A stretch of 36,677 nt of DNA from a virus. Location of the stretch: positions 1 through 36,677 of IMG/VR virus record IMGVR_UViG_3300025030_000279; one strand, written 5' to 3'. Under the pieces are notes generated by a model that did not search any database, was not told where the DNA came from, and saw only the letters and a list, made by a program, of their open reading frames with translations. Of this stretch, positions 17,376 to 32,585 are shown in pieces (the first letter of the stretch is position 1; each line of letters begins with the position of its first letter). Both the position numbers and the translations under genes were made by a program.

Positions 17376-18651
17376 GTTCAACCACCTCGAAATCCTGTGA
17401 TAGTAACTCTCTGCGTCGTTTGTAGTGCTTGGAAAGATGCTTCGGTCCCAAATCCACGAAATCGATAATTATCGCGGCGTGCCGAGACGCCTTCAACCGT
17501 AAGACGCGCCCCACGCGCTGCGTAAGCTGGATACTCGACTTCCCGCCAGCCGCGAGAATAACCACGTCGAGCTCGGGGAGATCGATCCCCTCATTGAAAA
17601 TGTTGCTTGCCACGATGCAGTTATACTCTGAAAGGTTCTTATAGCGATCGAGGCTTTGACCGTGGCAGAAAATCTTCTTCTCTATGCCAGACGCATCGTA
17701 GAGATACTGGCCGTGCTCAATTTGCGTGACGAGCACAAGGACCTTCCTCCCTTTGGCAACATACTGAGCCATTGCGTCGAGGATCATCTTATTGCGTGAG
17801 AAATTCTTAACGATATGCTTATCGTAGAGCTCAACGTAATTGTAGACGAAATCGCCCTGTGTATCAAACAGCGGCTTGTAGTAATGCACAACGGCATCCG
17901 AAAGATACCACTGCTCGATAAGGTCGCGGCGGCTAATCTGATACACAATAGGTCCGAGAGCGCCGAACATTCGCATGTCTTCGCCGTCTTCTCTTACAGG
18001 GCTAGCACTTAGGCCCACGATGATGCTGTCGGTCTTCGCGAACATCGAAAGATTATAGAGGCTTTTGGCGGCCACATGATGGCATTCGTCGAAGATGATA
18101 ATATCTGACGTTGCTACAAAGGTCGCGGCACGGGGATTTTGATAATTGATGATTCTGACATCGTCGTTCTCCCCGAGTTTTGATTCCCACATTTTCTTAA
18201 TGTCGAGCGTTGGAACAACGACAGTTGCTGTTCGATTGAGAATCTTGATATACCGCAATGCTGTGATGGTCTTGCCAGACCCGGTAGGCATACAAAGAAT
18301 TCCTCCTCTATGTTCAATGAGGGCGTCAATAGCGTCATTTTGATATTGTCGCAACTTCGGCGTATGCCAATGTTCGACAGAAGGTATTGTATATTCCCAT
18401 ATGTATTTATCATCCGGCGAGTATTCGCCCCACTGGCGCATAACATCATCGACAACATTCGCGAAGCCCCATGGGAACACACCCTTCTTAACCGAATAAA
18501 GCTTCACGACAGCCCATTCGGGGTGAGGCATATATTCGGCTCCTTTGCGAGTATAGGACATCTTCTGCAGAAGCATCCCAGCAAGCTTACCACCCGGGAT
18601 AGGGCCGATAACACCGTAATTTCCACGCTTTGTAATTTTATAAATAGTCAT
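17335..18651 (-). CDS. SF2 DNA helicase, XPB/UvsW-like
   Basis: A 438-residue helicase. After an N-terminal domain of about 90 residues come the Q-like LRQYQNDAI, motif I MPTGSGKT, motif II DECHH, motif III SASP, motif IV region VLVLVTQIEHGQYL, motif V region SNIFNEGIDLPELDVVI, and motif VI QRVGRVLR. This is the DExH set of XPB/RecG/UvsW-like double-strand translocases. Such viral enzymes act in recombination-dependent replication and fork remodelling. ATG 18651 is taken because GGTGGT lies just upstream; ATG 18663 is possible. A palindromic TATA box (18681-18688) inside the polB 3' end could give it a private promoter. Confidence 0.88.
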   Translation of the reverse strand: MTIYKITKRGNYGVIGPIPGGKLAGMLLQKMSYTRKGAEYMPHPEWAVVKLYSVKKGVFPWGFANVVDDVMRQWGEYSPDDKYIWEYTIPSVEHWHTPKLRQYQNDAIDALIEHRGGILCMPTGSGKTITALRYIKILNRTATVVVPTLDIKKMWESKLGENDDVRIINYQNPRAATFVATSDIIIFDECHHVAAKSLYNLSMFAKTDSIIVGLSASPVREDGEDMRMFGALGPIVYQISRRDLIEQWYLSDAVVHYYKPLFDTQGDFVYNYVELYDKHIVKNFSRNKMILDAMAQYVAKGRKVLVLVTQIEHGQYLYDASGIEKKIFCHGQSLDRYKNLSEYNCIVASNIFNEGIDLPELDVVILAAGGKSSIQLTQRVGRVLRLKASRHAAIIIDFVDLGPKHLSKHYKRRRELLSQDFEVVEHEQSGATLPSFFG

Positions 18652-20458
18652 TGAGACCACCATTTTTCGGAGTATTCGACTTTATAAATGGTTCTAATTC
18701 GTGCCACACTTTCGTCAGATCTAAATCGTCAACGCGCAGTTGAGCAGCGGCCTCTTCGACCGGGCAATACTTCCACGCCGTTCCTATCTTCCCGAGACGT
18801 TTATTCTTCACCAGTGCTATGACGCCGCTCTTCTTATCGAGATACGCCTCACTGATTTGCTTCTGGATACAATTCGCTCCGGCTTTATACATCTCGTAAC
18901 GGTTCACCTTGTAGTTCTGCGCAACGAGCGCGACATCGTTTTGTAACTCGTCGCGAATCCATCGGTCAACATCTTTCTTCTCGAACTTGCCAGAAAGATT
19001 CTCGACGATAAAAGCCTTCATGTACTTCTCAAAAATGAGAGGACCGAGTTTCGACGCGTTGCTCTTGATAAGCGGTAAGCCCATGACTGTGACTTCGCCA
19101 TTCGCCACGTAAACGTAATTCTTCTTGAGCGTTTTCTCGTCGTCATCCTTCTTTACGAACATGATGTAATCCAGATAATTTTCGATGTTGATGGTGAATG
19201 TCTCCTGTGGGAATGGGACGTACGCATTGATGATACCGACAACCTCCTCAAGGTCGTTAAGAACATCCTCACGCGTCTTAGGTATCAACGCCTTTGCAAA
19301 ATTAGAATCTGTGTCTCCTGCAATGATGCTATACCCACGCTTTGTGAGCTCTCGCTCCATAAGTTCATTAATCTGTTGCCCAAGATAGCAGCAGTCGGAA
19401 CCACAATTCTCTGTGTGCAGGCTTGCGAAGACGTCGCTATAACTAGCACCGAAGATACTATTCAAGAGGATTTTGTAGGCGTGCACAAGCGGGTTGTGTT
19501 TATCGATCTTCTTGAGTCGCATACGTTCTTTAAACTTCTCCATCATGTCCACCCCTAACGGGTTTGCGACAAGCGTGTCGTACCATCCAGCGACTTTGAA
19601 AACTTCATTACCGTGCCAGGCCCCGGGAGTGTTTGGAGGCACTTCACTGAATAAGTTGAATGATGCGAAGATATGCGGATAAAGACTTCCCACGTCGAGA
19701 TACCATACGCCCCACTCTTCGGAAACTCGTGGTTCGATAACACGTCCGCCCTTATCGCGCTTTCCAGAGTAGGCGGCGGCATAGATTTCTTCGCGATGAA
19801 GAATCTCGCACGCGTACATATACCCGATGCTTGCGATACTCGACGTGAGCCATCGCCACTTCTTCGCGTTCTTCTCGCCGACGAATTTGGAGAAGGGCAA
19901 CCAGAAGTTATAGATTTTATCAAACAATAATTTCGTAACCTTAATATCTCCGAGGAGGTATTTTTTAATGTCTTCGGTCTCCTCGGGTGTCCACGCATCC
20001 TTCTTGAAGAGCGTATAATCGATGTCGCCTTTGAGCGTTTCAAACTTTAGTATCTCTGCAATAGCGCGCAATGATTTTGATGGGAAATCAAGATTCATCA
20101 GGTTTGCTTTCCCTATCTTTTTGAAACCGTTCGCACCGTCATTCCCGAACAGAAACACGTAGGTGTCGATAGATTTTATCCAGCGGTCATAGACGATTTT
20201 ATTCTTCACATTCTTCAATATCGGAAGATCGAAATCGTCACCGTTGAACGTCACAATGACTTTGTGCTGTCCGATATACTTCTTTATCTTCTCTTCATTT
20301 CCTCTGAATTCAACGGCGTCGTAGCGGTCGTAAGCATAGGAATAGAACCCAATCCACTTGATCCTGGCGTCGTTGCGGTACTGTATCGACTCCTTGTCGA
20401 TATCATAGTCGCTCCAGCATTCGATATCGAGGATGAGCACCTCTTTAAGATTGGTCAT
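18638..20458 (-). CDS. polB: Family B DNA polymerase
   Basis: A compact 606-residue polymerase. Exonuclease motifs: Exo I D11-I-E13, Exo II N72-G-D-D-F-D77, Exo III Y167...D171. Polymerase motifs: A, D255-VGSLYP; B, K329-x3-N333-SIFG; C, G381-D-T-D-S with D382 and D384; and KKNYVY near residue 440. All catalytic acids are present, so both proofreading and synthesis should work. It is shorter than cellular archaeal PolB (about 780 residues), lacking much of the N-terminal domain. AAGGAGGAC precedes ATG 20458. It should work with the virus-coded clamp and clamp loader. Its start overlaps the split methyltransferase C-part. Confidence 0.95.
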   Translation of the reverse strand: MTNLKEVLILDIECWSDYDIDKESIQYRNDARIKWIGFYSYAYDRYDAVEFRGNEEKIKKYIGQHKVIVTFNGDDFDLPILKNVKNKIVYDRWIKSIDTYVFLFGNDGANGFKKIGKANLMNLDFPSKSLRAIAEILKFETLKGDIDYTLFKKDAWTPEETEDIKKYLLGDIKVTKLLFDKIYNFWLPFSKFVGEKNAKKWRWLTSSIASIGYMYACEILHREEIYAAAYSGKRDKGGRVIEPRVSEEWGVWYLDVGSLYPHIFASFNLFSEVPPNTPGAWHGNEVFKVAGWYDTLVANPLGVDMMEKFKERMRLKKIDKHNPLVHAYKILLNSIFGASYSDVFASLHTENCGSDCCYLGQQINELMERELTKRGYSIIAGDTDSNFAKALIPKTREDVLNDLEEVVGIINAYVPFPQETFTINIENYLDYIMFVKKDDDEKTLKKNYVYVANGEVTVMGLPLIKSNASKLGPLIFEKYMKAFIVENLSGKFEKKDVDRWIRDELQNDVALVAQNYKVNRYEMYKAGANCIQKQISEAYLDKKSGVIALVKNKRLGKIGTAWKYCPVEEAAAQLRVDDLDLTKVWHELEPFIKSNTPKNGGLNDYL

Positions 20459-23511: not shown

Positions 23512-23587
23512 GCGCCTCCAAGTCTTCAATCCGTTCGAGCAGATGCTTTTCGATGTGGTTGATCATATCTGTTTGTGTCAGTTTCAT
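23477..23587 (-). CDS. Tiny coiled-coil protein, 36 aa
   Basis: ATG 23587 overlaps the clamp-loader stop (ATGA). The 36-codon frame gives a heptad-patterned peptide ([20 protein letters not shown]). It overlaps the start of the gp62-like gene. Coupled starts at both ends make translation believable, but its short length leaves doubt. It may help pair subunits of the clamp loader or serve only to couple translation. Confidence 0.4.
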
Positions 23588-24483
23588 TTCAACACCGCCA
23601 TAGTCTTGAGAAGGAAGTTCTCCACGATGATTTCCTTGCTGATGACGAAGTTAACCTTACTCACTGCGTCGGCCAGATTGTTCACGATCTGTGTGAATAC
23701 TGGGCCGGGCATCTGCTTCTTCACGATACAGAGGTCGACGATGTACGCGTGATACTCGTCGAGGAATACGTCGTATTCAACGTTCCCGTCAAGTAAAACT
23801 TGGCGGGCATCGATGAAGTTTTGTGCCTTTAGGAGACCATGGATAGTCTCTGGAAGCATCGATTCCTTATTCAAGTCCGACGGCTCTATCTGACGTCCGA
23901 GCTCATGAAGACGTTGTAATTGATTGATAGCCTTACGAACATCGCCATTACAACGCTTCGCTATCTCACAGAGTTCTACCGGCCCAATACGTACGCCTTC
24001 AGCGGCCACGATACGGTCAAGATACTTCGCTATGCTCTCACTGTCTGTCTCGAACTTGAAGACGGTAAATCGACTCTTGAGCGGCTCGATGATTTTGTTC
24101 TCATAGTTCGCCGTGGCGATAAACCGGCAGTTACTATGGTACGTCTCCATCATGTTCCTAAGACTCGTCTGCGCGTCCACAGTCAGTGCATCACACTCGT
24201 CGAGAAAGACGATTTTGACACCACCATTATGGCTCTTGGTCATTGCGAAGTTTTTGACCTTATCGCGGATCGTCTGAATTCCCCGCTCATCGGAAGCGTT
24301 CAATGTCAGTGTCTCTGCACCAGTCTTCGCAATGATTATCTTCGCCGTTGTCGTCTTCCCCGTTCCTGGTTTGCCAATAAAGAGAAAATGAGGAAGGTTG
24401 TCGAGGGAATTCTTAATCCCATCGGCAAGTCCCATAACATCTGCGAACTCCTTCGGTCGATACTTTTCGTTCCAGATAGCCAT
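23584..24483 (-). CDS. Clamp-loader ATPase, RFC small subunit (T4 gp44-like)
   Basis: A 299-residue AAA+ protein beginning [17 protein letters not shown], the RFC signature. Walker A is G37-KPGTGKT44, Walker B FLDECD (D95-E96), sensor 1 in ATANYENK, and the arginine finger lies in KSRF (residues 136-139; the cellular form is SRC). The C-terminal helical domain follows. It opens the sliding clamp in an ATP-dependent way together with a partner, probably the gene just downstream. GAGGTG precedes ATG 24483. The clamp gene is 9 bases upstream. Confidence 0.93.
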
Positions 24484-24491
24484 GACGCACC

Positions 24492-25181
24492 TCAGTCATC
24501 GCTCACTTGGAGCGGAGCGGCAACGTATTGCACGCTATATTCTGGCGTTACCATCTTGAACATGACCGGATAATCGGTCTTCATACCGAATTCCACGGTG
24601 TTCTCAAGACATGAAAGTACATCGTTGACAGCATCGCCAAGGTGTACGACAGCGTTCGGTAGTGTCGTCGCGATCGTATCTGTTACGGTATCGAACGATT
24701 TACCACCCGTTGTGATATAGAGCTTCCCCTCCTCGACACGGAACTGTGTTTTCGTAGAGTCAACGATTTTTTTATTCTTCACGATGCTACGAAAGACGTC
24801 TGACGGCATGGTGACCGTGGCCTCCCATGTTCCCTTCGTCGTGGTCGTAAGCGCGTTATCTACGAAATCGGCGTCAGATAAGACATAATCAACCTGCTTC
24901 GTCGCATTGAAAATACTCAGCTTGTTCTTGTTGATCTGTATCTCAACGACCCCGGTGAAGAGGTTCAAGAGCTGTGAGAACATCCGCATATCCTTGATAT
25001 ACCATGATTGGTTCTCGCCGTCAACCGCGTTGAGAGTCGCGTACGCCGCCACGGTATTATCGATGCTACGATTGTACGCCCACATGCGGCCGTTCTCGAT
25101 GTGCACCGCAGCCGTTACTATGGCGTTGTTAAGCGTGGCTTTCGCCAAAAAAGGGGAGAGTCTTGATATGTCGATTTTCAT
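24492..25181 (-). CDS. Sliding clamp (PCNA/gp45-like)
   Basis: A 229-residue protein, close in size to T4 gp45 (228) and shorter than cellular archaeal PCNA. Two-domain clamp pattern: an N-terminal repeat with [20 protein letters not shown] and [19 protein letters not shown], and a C-terminal [20 protein letters not shown], the closing strands typical of PCNA-fold clamps. The neighbouring RFC-like ATPase confirms the role. It should give the viral PolB processivity. GGATGGTGA precedes ATG 25181. Confidence 0.82.
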
Positions 25182-29736: not shown

Positions 29737-30220
29737 GAACGCCATAACGATGACAAAGGAGCAGCACACCGCATTCCGTGAAGAATTGAGGCGGCTGATA
29801 GAATCCGGCGAGATATTACGGTATTCGCGCGAACAGCTCTATAAGCAAGTCACAGAGAATTACGGCGTCGCCTCGAGCAGACGCATCGTAGATACGGGGA
29901 TCGCAGAGATTTATAAATCGATTGACATCGACGAAATCGACGTCACGAAGAAACGACTGTACGTCCTCTTCGAGACGCTCTTCCGGGACACCACAAACCT
30001 CCTTGAGAACGCCAAGGACGATTACGAAAAGCGCAAAGCGATAGAGCTCACACTCACCCTTGTCGAAAAGTTCACAGACTTCCTGGAAGCCTTCGGGCTC
30101 AAAGAACGCATAGCGACGACGATCAACATTGGCCTCGAAAAACAGCTCGTCATCATTAAAGAAGCCGAGAAGGTGGTGGACGCCATACCCATCGAGGAGA
30201 AGATTGATGGAGCAACATAA
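29726..30220 (+). CDS. terS: Terminase small subunit
   Basis: A 164-residue, largely helical protein directly upstream of, and overlapping, TerL. An N-terminal helix-turn-helix-like region (TKEQHTAFREELRRLIESGE; YSREQLYKQVTENYGVASSR) precedes a long coiled coil (TNLLENAKDDYEKRKAIELT), the usual TerS layout. It should recognise viral DNA and start packaging. GTG 29726 is taken because GGGAGG lies 5 nt upstream. The identification rests on position and helical layout. Confidence 0.72.
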   Translation: MVSKNAITMTKEQHTAFREELRRLIESGEILRYSREQLYKQVTENYGVASSRRIVDTGIAEIYKSIDIDEIDVTKKRLYVLFETLFRDTTNLLENAKDDYEKRKAIELTLTLVEKFTDFLEAFGLKERIATTINIGLEKQLVIIKEAEKVVDAIPIEEKIDGAT

Positions 30221-32585
30221 AGTCGTCTTGAGCGCGAAACAGCGCGAAGCGTGGAACGCCCTCGTCGACGGAGAATCTAACGAAATCCTCTATGGTGGCG
30301 GAGCCGGTGGTGGGAAAGGGCAACCACTCGACGCGCTCGTCAATACCCCCTTTGGGTATCGACGAATGGGAGACCTGAGAATTGGTAGTAAGGTGTCGAA
30401 CCCCACTGGCGAAGTTTCCGAAGTGATAGCGATACACCCGCTCGGGAACCGGCAACTATTCGAAGTGGCCTTTCTCGACAAAACGTCGACCGAGGTGACG
30501 GGAGATCATTTGTGGCTGGTTTGGGAATCTCATAACGGGCGCAAAGTTAAAGGGAAGGAGATGGGCGGTAGAGAATCGGCGAGAATACGCACAACAGAAG
30601 AACTCTTGCGACTGCAACCGAGGAGATTTAGAATACCGATCAGCGCGGCAATTCCGTATAACGATGTTGCGAGATACTCGCGCAGGCCAATACCGCCCTA
30701 CCTGCTTGGAGTGGTCCTCGGTGACGGGTGGTTGACGGAAAATGTTATCGGGTTCTGCTCGGCGGATAAGGAGATCGTGGAGAAAACGCGGCAACTTGCC
30801 GAATTCAACCCGCCAAGTCGGCAGGGCAATGTCACCATCAACAATTTAAAAGGCGGGCGTTCGAGCAAACTCTACGGGCATTTTGAAAAGTTCGGGCTCA
30901 TCGGAAAAAAATCACACGAGAAATTCATTCCGAAACCCTATCTGCTCGGCACAATTGAGGAGCGCTGGGAATTGCTGCGCGGCCTTATGGATACCGATGG
31001 ATGGGCCGACATCGATGGAGACACACATTTCTGCACAACAAGCCCGCTTCTGCGCGACGATGTTGCGGAACTTGCGCGCTCACTCGGAGCATATGTGACG
31101 CAACACTCGAAGTTTCCAAAGTTCATGCATGATGGTCGAGTGAAGTGCGGAAAAGACGCCTGGGTGCTGAGAATAAAATTCAGGAACTCGTCACTCGCTT
31201 TCTCCTTGAAGAGGAAGATGGAACGCTGCAAGCTAATCGAACCACAAAGCATGGGGAAAGAGATCGCATCCATACGGCCCACAAGAATGGTCGAAGCACA
31301 ATGCATCACGGTGTCGCATCCAAACGGGCTTTATCTCACGAACGATGTCATCGTGACTCACAACAGTTTCATAGGCTGCCTATGGCTTATCGTGATGTGC
31401 CAGCAATACCCGAAGACGCGCTGGCTTATGGGGCGTGCGGTCTTGAAGGCTCTCAAAGAGTCAACGCTCAAAACGTTCATCGACCTCATCGCGGCTCTCG
31501 GATGGGGCGACATCGTGAACATCAATCAGGTCGATGGTAACATCCGATGGGACAACGGTTCTGAGATAATCTTGAAAGACCTCTTCGCGTATCCGAGCGA
31601 TCCAAACTTTGACAGCTTGGGTTCGACGGAATACACGGGCGCGTTTATCGACGAGGCGTCGCAGATATCGTTGAAAGCGAAGAACATCATCATGTCGAGG
31701 ATTCGTTACCGGCTCGATGAGTACGGCCTTATACCGAAGCTTCTCATCTGTAGCAACCCGGCGAAGAACTGGATGTACTCGGATTTCTACAAGCCCGCTG
31801 TTGAGCGAAGGCTTCCGAAGGATAAGAAATTCATCCAGAGTCTCGTCGGCGATAACCCATACATCAGCCCGCATTATATCGAATCGCTCAAGAAGCTTGA
31901 TAAGCTCACGAAGGAACGTCTGCTCTTTGGTAATTGGGAATACGATGATGACCTCGGAAAGCTTTTCAAGTACGAGAGCATCATGAACATTTTTACGAAT
32001 TCCTTCGTGCGACCAGGCGAGAAGTATATTACATGTGACGCCGCGCGCTTGGGGTCAGATATCTGCACCATCTATCTCTGGGACGGTCTGCGAGTTACTG
32101 AAGTACACACATACAAACTGAGTCTCGGCTCAACAATTCGTCGAACAATCACAGAACTCGCAGAGAAGGGCAACGTTCCACGAAGCCATATCTGTATCGA
32201 CGAGGATGGTGTGGGCGGTTTTCTCGTCGATGAATTCCCAGGCTGTCGCGGGTTCGTGAACAACTCCTCACCACTTGGTAAAGAGAACTATGCGAACCTA
32301 AAATCGCAGTGCTATTTCAAACTCGCCGAGTACGTTGAGAAGAACATGATATACTTCGCCGTCGATGACATCGATGTCACGACGAAGCTTATCGAGGACC
32401 TTGAGCAGATAACACAGAAGAACCTCGACAAGGATGAGAAACTAGCGATTGTGAGCAAGGACGTCATCAAGGCGCGTACAGGAAGATCGACGGATTATTC
32501 CGACGCCTTGATGATGCGGATGATTTTCGAGGTCGGGGTGCAGGAATCGTATTCGACGGCAAAGCCTTTGACAACCCGATTTTAA
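30207..32585 (+). CDS. terL: Terminase large subunit, interrupted by in-frame intein
   Basis: A 792-residue precursor; removal of the 349-residue intein gives a 443-residue TerL. Walker A is GGGAGGGK|S with the intein between Lys37 and Ser387. Walker B is GAFIDEASQIS. The C-terminal nuclease has acidic residues in ITCDAARLGSDICTIYLWDG, ICIDEDGVGG and DYSDALMMRM. These are the ATPase motor and headful or site-specific nuclease of tailed viruses. ATG 30207 follows GAGGAG and overlaps terS by 14 bases. TerL can work only after splicing, since the intein splits the ATP-binding loop. Confidence 0.95.
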   Translation: MEQHKVVLSAKQREAWNALVDGESNEILYGGGAGGGKGQPLDALVNTPFGYRRMGDLRIGSKVSNPTGEVSEVIAIHPLGNRQLFEVAFLDKTSTEVTGDHLWLVWESHNGRKVKGKEMGGRESARIRTTEELLRLQPRRFRIPISAAIPYNDVARYSRRPIPPYLLGVVLGDGWLTENVIGFCSADKEIVEKTRQLAEFNPPSRQGNVTINNLKGGRSSKLYGHFEKFGLIGKKSHEKFIPKPYLLGTIEERWELLRGLMDTDGWADIDGDTHFCTTSPLLRDDVAELARSLGAYVTQHSKFPKFMHDGRVKCGKDAWVLRIKFRNSSLAFSLKRKMERCKLIEPQSMGKEIASIRPTRMVEAQCITVSHPNGLYLTNDVIVTHNSFIGCLWLIVMCQQYPKTRWLMGRAVLKALKESTLKTFIDLIAALGWGDIVNINQVDGNIRWDNGSEIILKDLFAYPSDPNFDSLGSTEYTGAFIDEASQISLKAKNIIMSRIRYRLDEYGLIPKLLICSNPAKNWMYSDFYKPAVERRLPKDKKFIQSLVGDNPYISPHYIESLKKLDKLTKERLLFGNWEYDDDLGKLFKYESIMNIFTNSFVRPGEKYITCDAARLGSDICTIYLWDGLRVTEVHTYKLSLGSTIRRTITELAEKGNVPRSHICIDEDGVGGFLVDEFPGCRGFVNNSSPLGKENYANLKSQCYFKLAEYVEKNMIYFAVDDIDVTTKLIEDLEQITQKNLDKDEKLAIVSKDVIKARTGRSTDYSDALMMRMIFEVGVQESYSTAKPLTTRF
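30318..31364 (+). mobile_element. Class 3-like intein with LAGLIDADG homing endonuclease
   Basis: The insertion covers precursor residues 38-386. It begins GQPLDALVNTPFGYRRMGDL, so the first residue is Gly, not Cys or Ser. Block B has T98-x2-H101 followed by W103. Block F has C366 (AQCITV). Block G reads VT384-H385-N386, then Ser387 of the extein. Trp, Cys and Thr at these places are the WCT signature of class 3 inteins. The endonuclease motifs are LLGVVLGDG (acidic D173) and LLRGLMDTDG (D264), both intact, so it may be active and mobile. Confidence 0.85.

Follow-up and report, generated by a model that had tools for sequence, protein, structure and literature searches.

Class 3 inteins are defined by their residues at block positions B:12, F:4 and G:5 (PMC5050341; PMC4031507), and this is the residue pattern found in the intein described here, which interrupts the large terminase subunit (TerL) of a virus. 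Among studied class 3 inteins, M. smegmatis DnaBi1 occupies the P-loop of DnaB and uses the P-loop Ser as its +1 nucleophile (PMC6195587). Both DnaBi1 (6bs8) and the M. chimaera DnaB intein (6rix) resemble the TerL intein in the register of the Trp-Cys-Thr (WCT) signature, in having no nucleophile at position 1 and in their Hint fold, and DnaBi1 also has the GK/S insertion site in common with it (a slash marks the insertion site throughout). However, the DnaB inteins are mini-inteins in a cellular helicase, whereas the TerL intein keeps an endonuclease and sits in a viral TerL.

The class 3-type TerL inteins of Thiohalocapsa phage MD04, Aphanizomenon phage CL131, Klebsiella phage N1M2 and the crAss-like phage cr111_1 likewise carry the WCT residues, LAGLIDADG motifs and a THN/S or THN/T junction; the P-loop site is directly visible in MD04 (GGAAGGGK/L) and CL131 (FGGSAGGGK/A). 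They are only about 33-34% identical to the TerL intein, however, and belong to bacterial phages with other TerL families. The TerL of the archaeal virus MetMV (MK170447) also holds a class 3-type intein in its P-loop (RRSGK/A ... THN/T), which is 32-33% identical. In mycobacteriophages, for which inteins of classes 1 and 3 have both been reported, the TerL1-a inteins are inserted after the invariant P-loop Lys of TerL, as here (PMC5050341).

Insertion site and splice junctions

The window, i.e., the whole 36,677-nt record IMGVR_UViG_3300025030_000279, encodes the TerL precursor on the forward strand at 30207-32585 (792 aa, ATG start; Pfam Terminase_3 5.9e-9, Terminase_6N 8.9e-6), and this frame is open across the intein and both junctions without a stop. 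Alignment with uninterrupted TerLs delimits an N-extein at 30207-30317 (+), which ends with the Walker A sequence GGGAGGGK, and a C-extein at 31365-32582 (+), whose Ser+1 (31365-31367) doubles as the Walker A Ser. Between the Walker A Lys and Ser lies the 349-residue intein, Gly1 to Asn349, at 30318-31364 (+), corresponding to TerL residues 38-386.

The TerLs of two relatives without an intein (L005 and L006), 67% identical, read NEILYGGAAGGGKSFLG and place both junctions to the residue. The initial annotation had put the insertion inside the Walker A loop, GGGAGGGK/S at 30318-31364, and had suggested comparison with intein-free relatives as a check; these empty sites agree with its coordinates exactly. 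A third empty allele is present in L119. Scans of genomes and viral contigs with TerL returned about 160 relatives, which read GK/S without an intein wherever the P-loop is readable; the ranking of these scans favors unsplit TerLs, so that the intein-free share is not a frequency. The TerS, TerL and portal genes are intact around the intein, and an assembly chimera was rejected, as the order TerS-TerL-portal is the same in L005/L006 (TerL 67%, portal 46%, major capsid protein (MCP) 74% identical).

Block residues, census and phylogeny assign the intein to class 3

Position 1 of the intein is Gly and thus lacks the Cys or Ser nucleophile required of class 1. Block B reads His64-Leu-Trp66 (B:10 to B:12, 30507-30515 (+)); the two conserved residues are H101 (30507-30509) and W103 (30513-30515) in TerL numbering. 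Cys329 (C366, 31302-31304 (+)) occupies F:4 and is the proposed initiating nucleophile, and Thr347-His348-Asn349 (T384-H385-N386, 31356-31364 (+)) forms block G, with Thr347 at G:5. When aligned by phmmer with 6bs8 (E=5.9e-6) and 6rix, the class 3 DnaB inteins, the TerL intein has H-x-W, the block F Cys and Thr-His-Asn at the matching positions.

To compare these positions across viruses we aligned 94 viral inteins, the TerL intein included, collected with a scan pattern that contained DTDG, so that conservation of this motif is selected and all other residues lie outside the pattern; the set was ranked by similarity to the TerL intein, which favors its own class. The block B His, the block F Cys and the terminal His-Asn are invariant, Trp is present in 91/94 and Thr in 92/94. 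Cys never occurs at position 1, where we counted 59 Ala, 7 Leu, 7 Ser and 3 Gly, one of the latter being the TerL intein. As controls served 21 archaeal class 1 inteins from nanoarchaeal-phylum genomes. All 21 start with Cys1 and carry Leu, Phe or Tyr at B:12 (0/21 Trp); F:4 is Asp in 20 and Asn in one, and G:5 is mostly Val, Ile or Leu, with Thr in 2/21. Against the 93 other viral inteins and the 21 class 1 inteins the block positions hold, and neither C366 nor W103 falls at another one. The class 3 signature had therefore been read correctly to the residue in the initial annotation (Gly1, W103, C366, T384-H385-N386), in agreement with alignment, tree and fold.

When 51 class 3-type inteins and the 21 class 1 controls were placed in a maximum-likelihood tree, the two classes split at 100/100, and the TerL intein groups with 50 WCT-type inteins apart from class 1; the controls in this tree are archaeal class 1 inteins only, and the comparison with characterized class 3 proteins was made through alignment and fold, outside the tree. 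Within class 3 the intein is one of 25 rows in a group (86/98) that it shares with further inteins of TerL-type P-loops, and there it pairs with the CL131 intein (97/86). A class 3 profile also strongly matches the class 1 gp41-1 intein (6qaz); therefore, the class is defined by residues and tree and not by a profile match on its own. A chance match to the WCT signature was rejected on the basis of the census, the contrast to class 1 and the tree.

Fold and homing endonuclease

The first LAGLIDADG motif (YLLGVVLGDGW, 30699-30731 (+)) contains the catalytic Asp136, present in 94/94 of the census inteins, and the second (LLRGLMDTDGW, 30972-31004 (+); Pfam LAGLIDADG_3 6e-7) contains Asp227, also 94/94 with DTDG being part of the scan pattern. 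Both endonuclease Asp residues are thus kept, as first annotated. The AlphaFold2 model of the intein reached a pLDDT of 90.7 and a pTM of 0.90. With this model, Foldseek returned PI-SceI first (E 3.4e-16), followed by I-DmoI and the class 3 DnaB inteins 6bs8, 6rix and 6riy, whose best chains gave TMt values of 0.77-0.85 with most of the target covered. These matches indicate that the intein combines a Hint domain for splicing with a LAGLIDADG endonuclease.

Distribution of related inteins

Searching with the intein by tblastn, we matched 774 phage records, 540 of them over at least 80% of its length and all below 60% identity. The matched inteins sit in TerL, helicases and other ATPases. H-x-W, Cys and THN are found in 13/13 relatives examined residue by residue (11 from the phage collection, 2 from IMG/VR). 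A simple motif test located the GK/S or GK/T position in 86/94 of the census inteins, and CL131, whose start was misread, is an 87th. The rarity implied by the initial annotation does not hold against these numbers, as class 3 inteins at P-loops are abundant in phages.

An intein-led scan recovered eight homologous TerLs with a class 3-type intein at the same position (L181, L183, L184, L187, L231, L233, L240 and L251), their C-exteins matching at E-values of 1e-31 to 1e-97. Such a scattered distribution across homologous TerLs is as expected for a homing element, and together with the integrity of the endonuclease motifs it suggests that the intein is probably still mobile. Among the sequences found, a partial intein with 43% identity comes nearest, and it lies in an unrelated TerL of bacterial type (L002); this relative and the tree placement support horizontal movement. 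GC3 is 0.60 in the intein vs 0.65 in the C-extein, and the codon fit of the intein is slightly poorer; these differences are too small to be used as a sign of recent arrival. L232 and L238 carry class 3-type inteins with Pro1, SHN in place of THN and an insertion site, GPRG/SAKS, that lies earlier in the P-loop than GK/S.

Other disruptions at the P-loop codons of TerL

Several TerL relatives are interrupted at the same codons in other ways. In L163 (1558-1602), the Walker A codons of an intein-free TerL (YGG...AAGGGKS) are interrupted by 42 nt with two stops, a 7-bp hairpin of modest stability compared to shuffles (z -1.9) and matching GGA codons on both flanks. From its sequence, this insertion at the intein site looks like a translational bypass element of the T4 gene 60 type. 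In a second TerL relative, L134 (3946-3988), the P-loop codons are interrupted at this place by a 40-nt insertion that includes a stop, folds as a strong hairpin (-24.7 kcal/mol, z -3.8) and lies between the Ala codons GCT and GCA; the insertion has no match in Rfam and in IMG/VR matches only its own contig. Shorter disruptions at the same place in L090 and L129 could be sequence errors. The TerLs of L008 and L071 show stop codons at P-loop Gly positions under table 11, as expected if UGA encodes Gly (putative code 25).

The virus and its probable host

All named matches of the MCP in the phage collection are archaeal viruses (9/9, Haloarcula tailed viruses and one Methanofastidiosa virus), and those of the portal are all Haloarcula viruses (12/12). 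Of 279 genomes that share their phylum with a Nanoarchaeota bin, one has a syntenic 6.6 kb contig with homologues of TerL, portal, protease and MCP, and the MCP was absent from 287 genomes that share theirs with the Patescibacteria bin. TerL itself has its nearest relatives in Flavobacterium phage 11b (51%) and in Bacteroidota and Patescibacteria bins, one Patescibacteria bin having both TerL and portal homologues. The earlier view of an archaeal-type virus is thus probable from MCP and portal, but TerL lies nearest to Bacteroidota phages. On balance, an archaeal host is likely. The portal scan of IMG/VR returned only the two known contigs as portal relatives, and L119, reached through TerL, has a 57% identical portal. 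No tRNAs that could serve as a host clue were found in the window. The 37-kb record also encodes a clamp loader (23587-24483 (-)), which resembles those of T4-like phages, a putative sliding clamp (24495-25181 (-), weak match) and a short polB-like protein (18641-20458 (-)).

Class 3-type inteins occur in other archaeal settings. The TerL intein of Methanosarcina virus MetMV (8001-9050 of L009) has no annotation apart from that of the terminase and goes unmentioned in the MetMV paper; in our tree it lies outside the group of the TerL intein, elsewhere within class 3. In a nanoarchaeal-phylum genome (L293), TerL contains a class 3-type intein (Leu1, HEW, Cys, THN, GK/S); the same genome also holds another, class 1-type intein with a THN end (L323). 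In the open-licence literature we found no papers describing class 3 inteins in archaeal viruses. One could imagine that class 3 inteins moved repeatedly from bacterial phages into archaeal-virus TerLs (this virus, MetMV and the nanoarchaeal-phylum TerL), with the splicing rate gating packaging in at least one of them, a combined scenario to which we give very little credence.

Proposed splicing pathway and alternative readings

Taken together, we are highly confident that the element is a class 3 intein of full length, that it includes a LAGLIDADG homing endonuclease and that it splits the Walker A loop of TerL between Lys and Ser. By analogy with studied class 3 inteins, the F:4 Cys would attack the Lys-Gly junction and form the block F branched thioester. 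The N-extein would then be transferred to Ser+1, followed by cyclization of Asn349, and an acyl shift would join Lys to Ser and restore the P-loop. As the intein separates the Walker A Lys from Ser, unspliced TerL should be without ATPase function, and the precursor would neither bind ATP nor package DNA before splicing. The proposal that TerL activity depends on splicing is supported by the site insofar as splicing would restore the P-loop. The endonuclease probably cleaves TerL genes that lack the intein, at the conserved stretch that encodes the P-loop, whereby the element would spread among co-infecting viruses.

Could splicing be a regulated switch, with TerL inactive until a cue such as redox state, metal or temperature sets the time of packaging? 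An insertion site that destroys the ATPase would suit such a role, and M. smegmatis DnaBi1, likewise a class 3 P-loop intein, is inhibited by peroxide (PMC6195587). However, Cys48, which belongs to the DnaBi1 redox pair, aligns with a Leu of the TerL intein, and the retention of the splicing Cys, His and Asn in 94/94 inteins would be needed for fast constitutive splicing too. We find no support for the initial suggestion that packaging may be timed by splicing, and regard a switch as very unlikely.

Even less probable is an assignment to class 1 or class 2, with the look-alike residues arisen by chance and splicing started in another way, for class 2 by direct attack of the +1 residue. Gly1 is devoid of a nucleophile like the Ala1 of class 2, and the class-1-like Thr61 of the TxxH motif is kept, as it is in 10/94 of the viral inteins. 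But class 2 is described by Ala1 with Cys+1 and no Cys at F:4, whereas this intein has Gly1, Ser+1 and the F:4 Cys, and the joint presence of this Cys with the B:12 Trp and the G:5 Thr, along with the 100/100 clustering with WCT-type inteins, argues for class 3. Finally, the intein might be a degenerating or dead copy that obstructs TerL, which would fit the identity of only about 30-43% to any relative found; this is scarcely credible, since no catalytic residue of either activity is lost, the reading frame is open throughout, and the genes for TerS, TerL and portal are all intact.

Implications

The intein described here is a well-formed member of class 3, its site is of a familiar kind, and it leaves the understanding of splicing or packaging unchanged. 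Class 3 P-loop inteins are common in phages; the less usual part is a virus with archaeal-looking capsid genes. As a full-length class 3 intein with an endonuclease, the TerL intein is available for biochemical work. The P-loop of viral ATPases emerges as a shared target, at which one intein lineage colonized many unrelated proteins. Class 3 inteins have been described in bacteria and in bacterial phages, and their range is hereby extended to the TerL of probable archaeal viruses.
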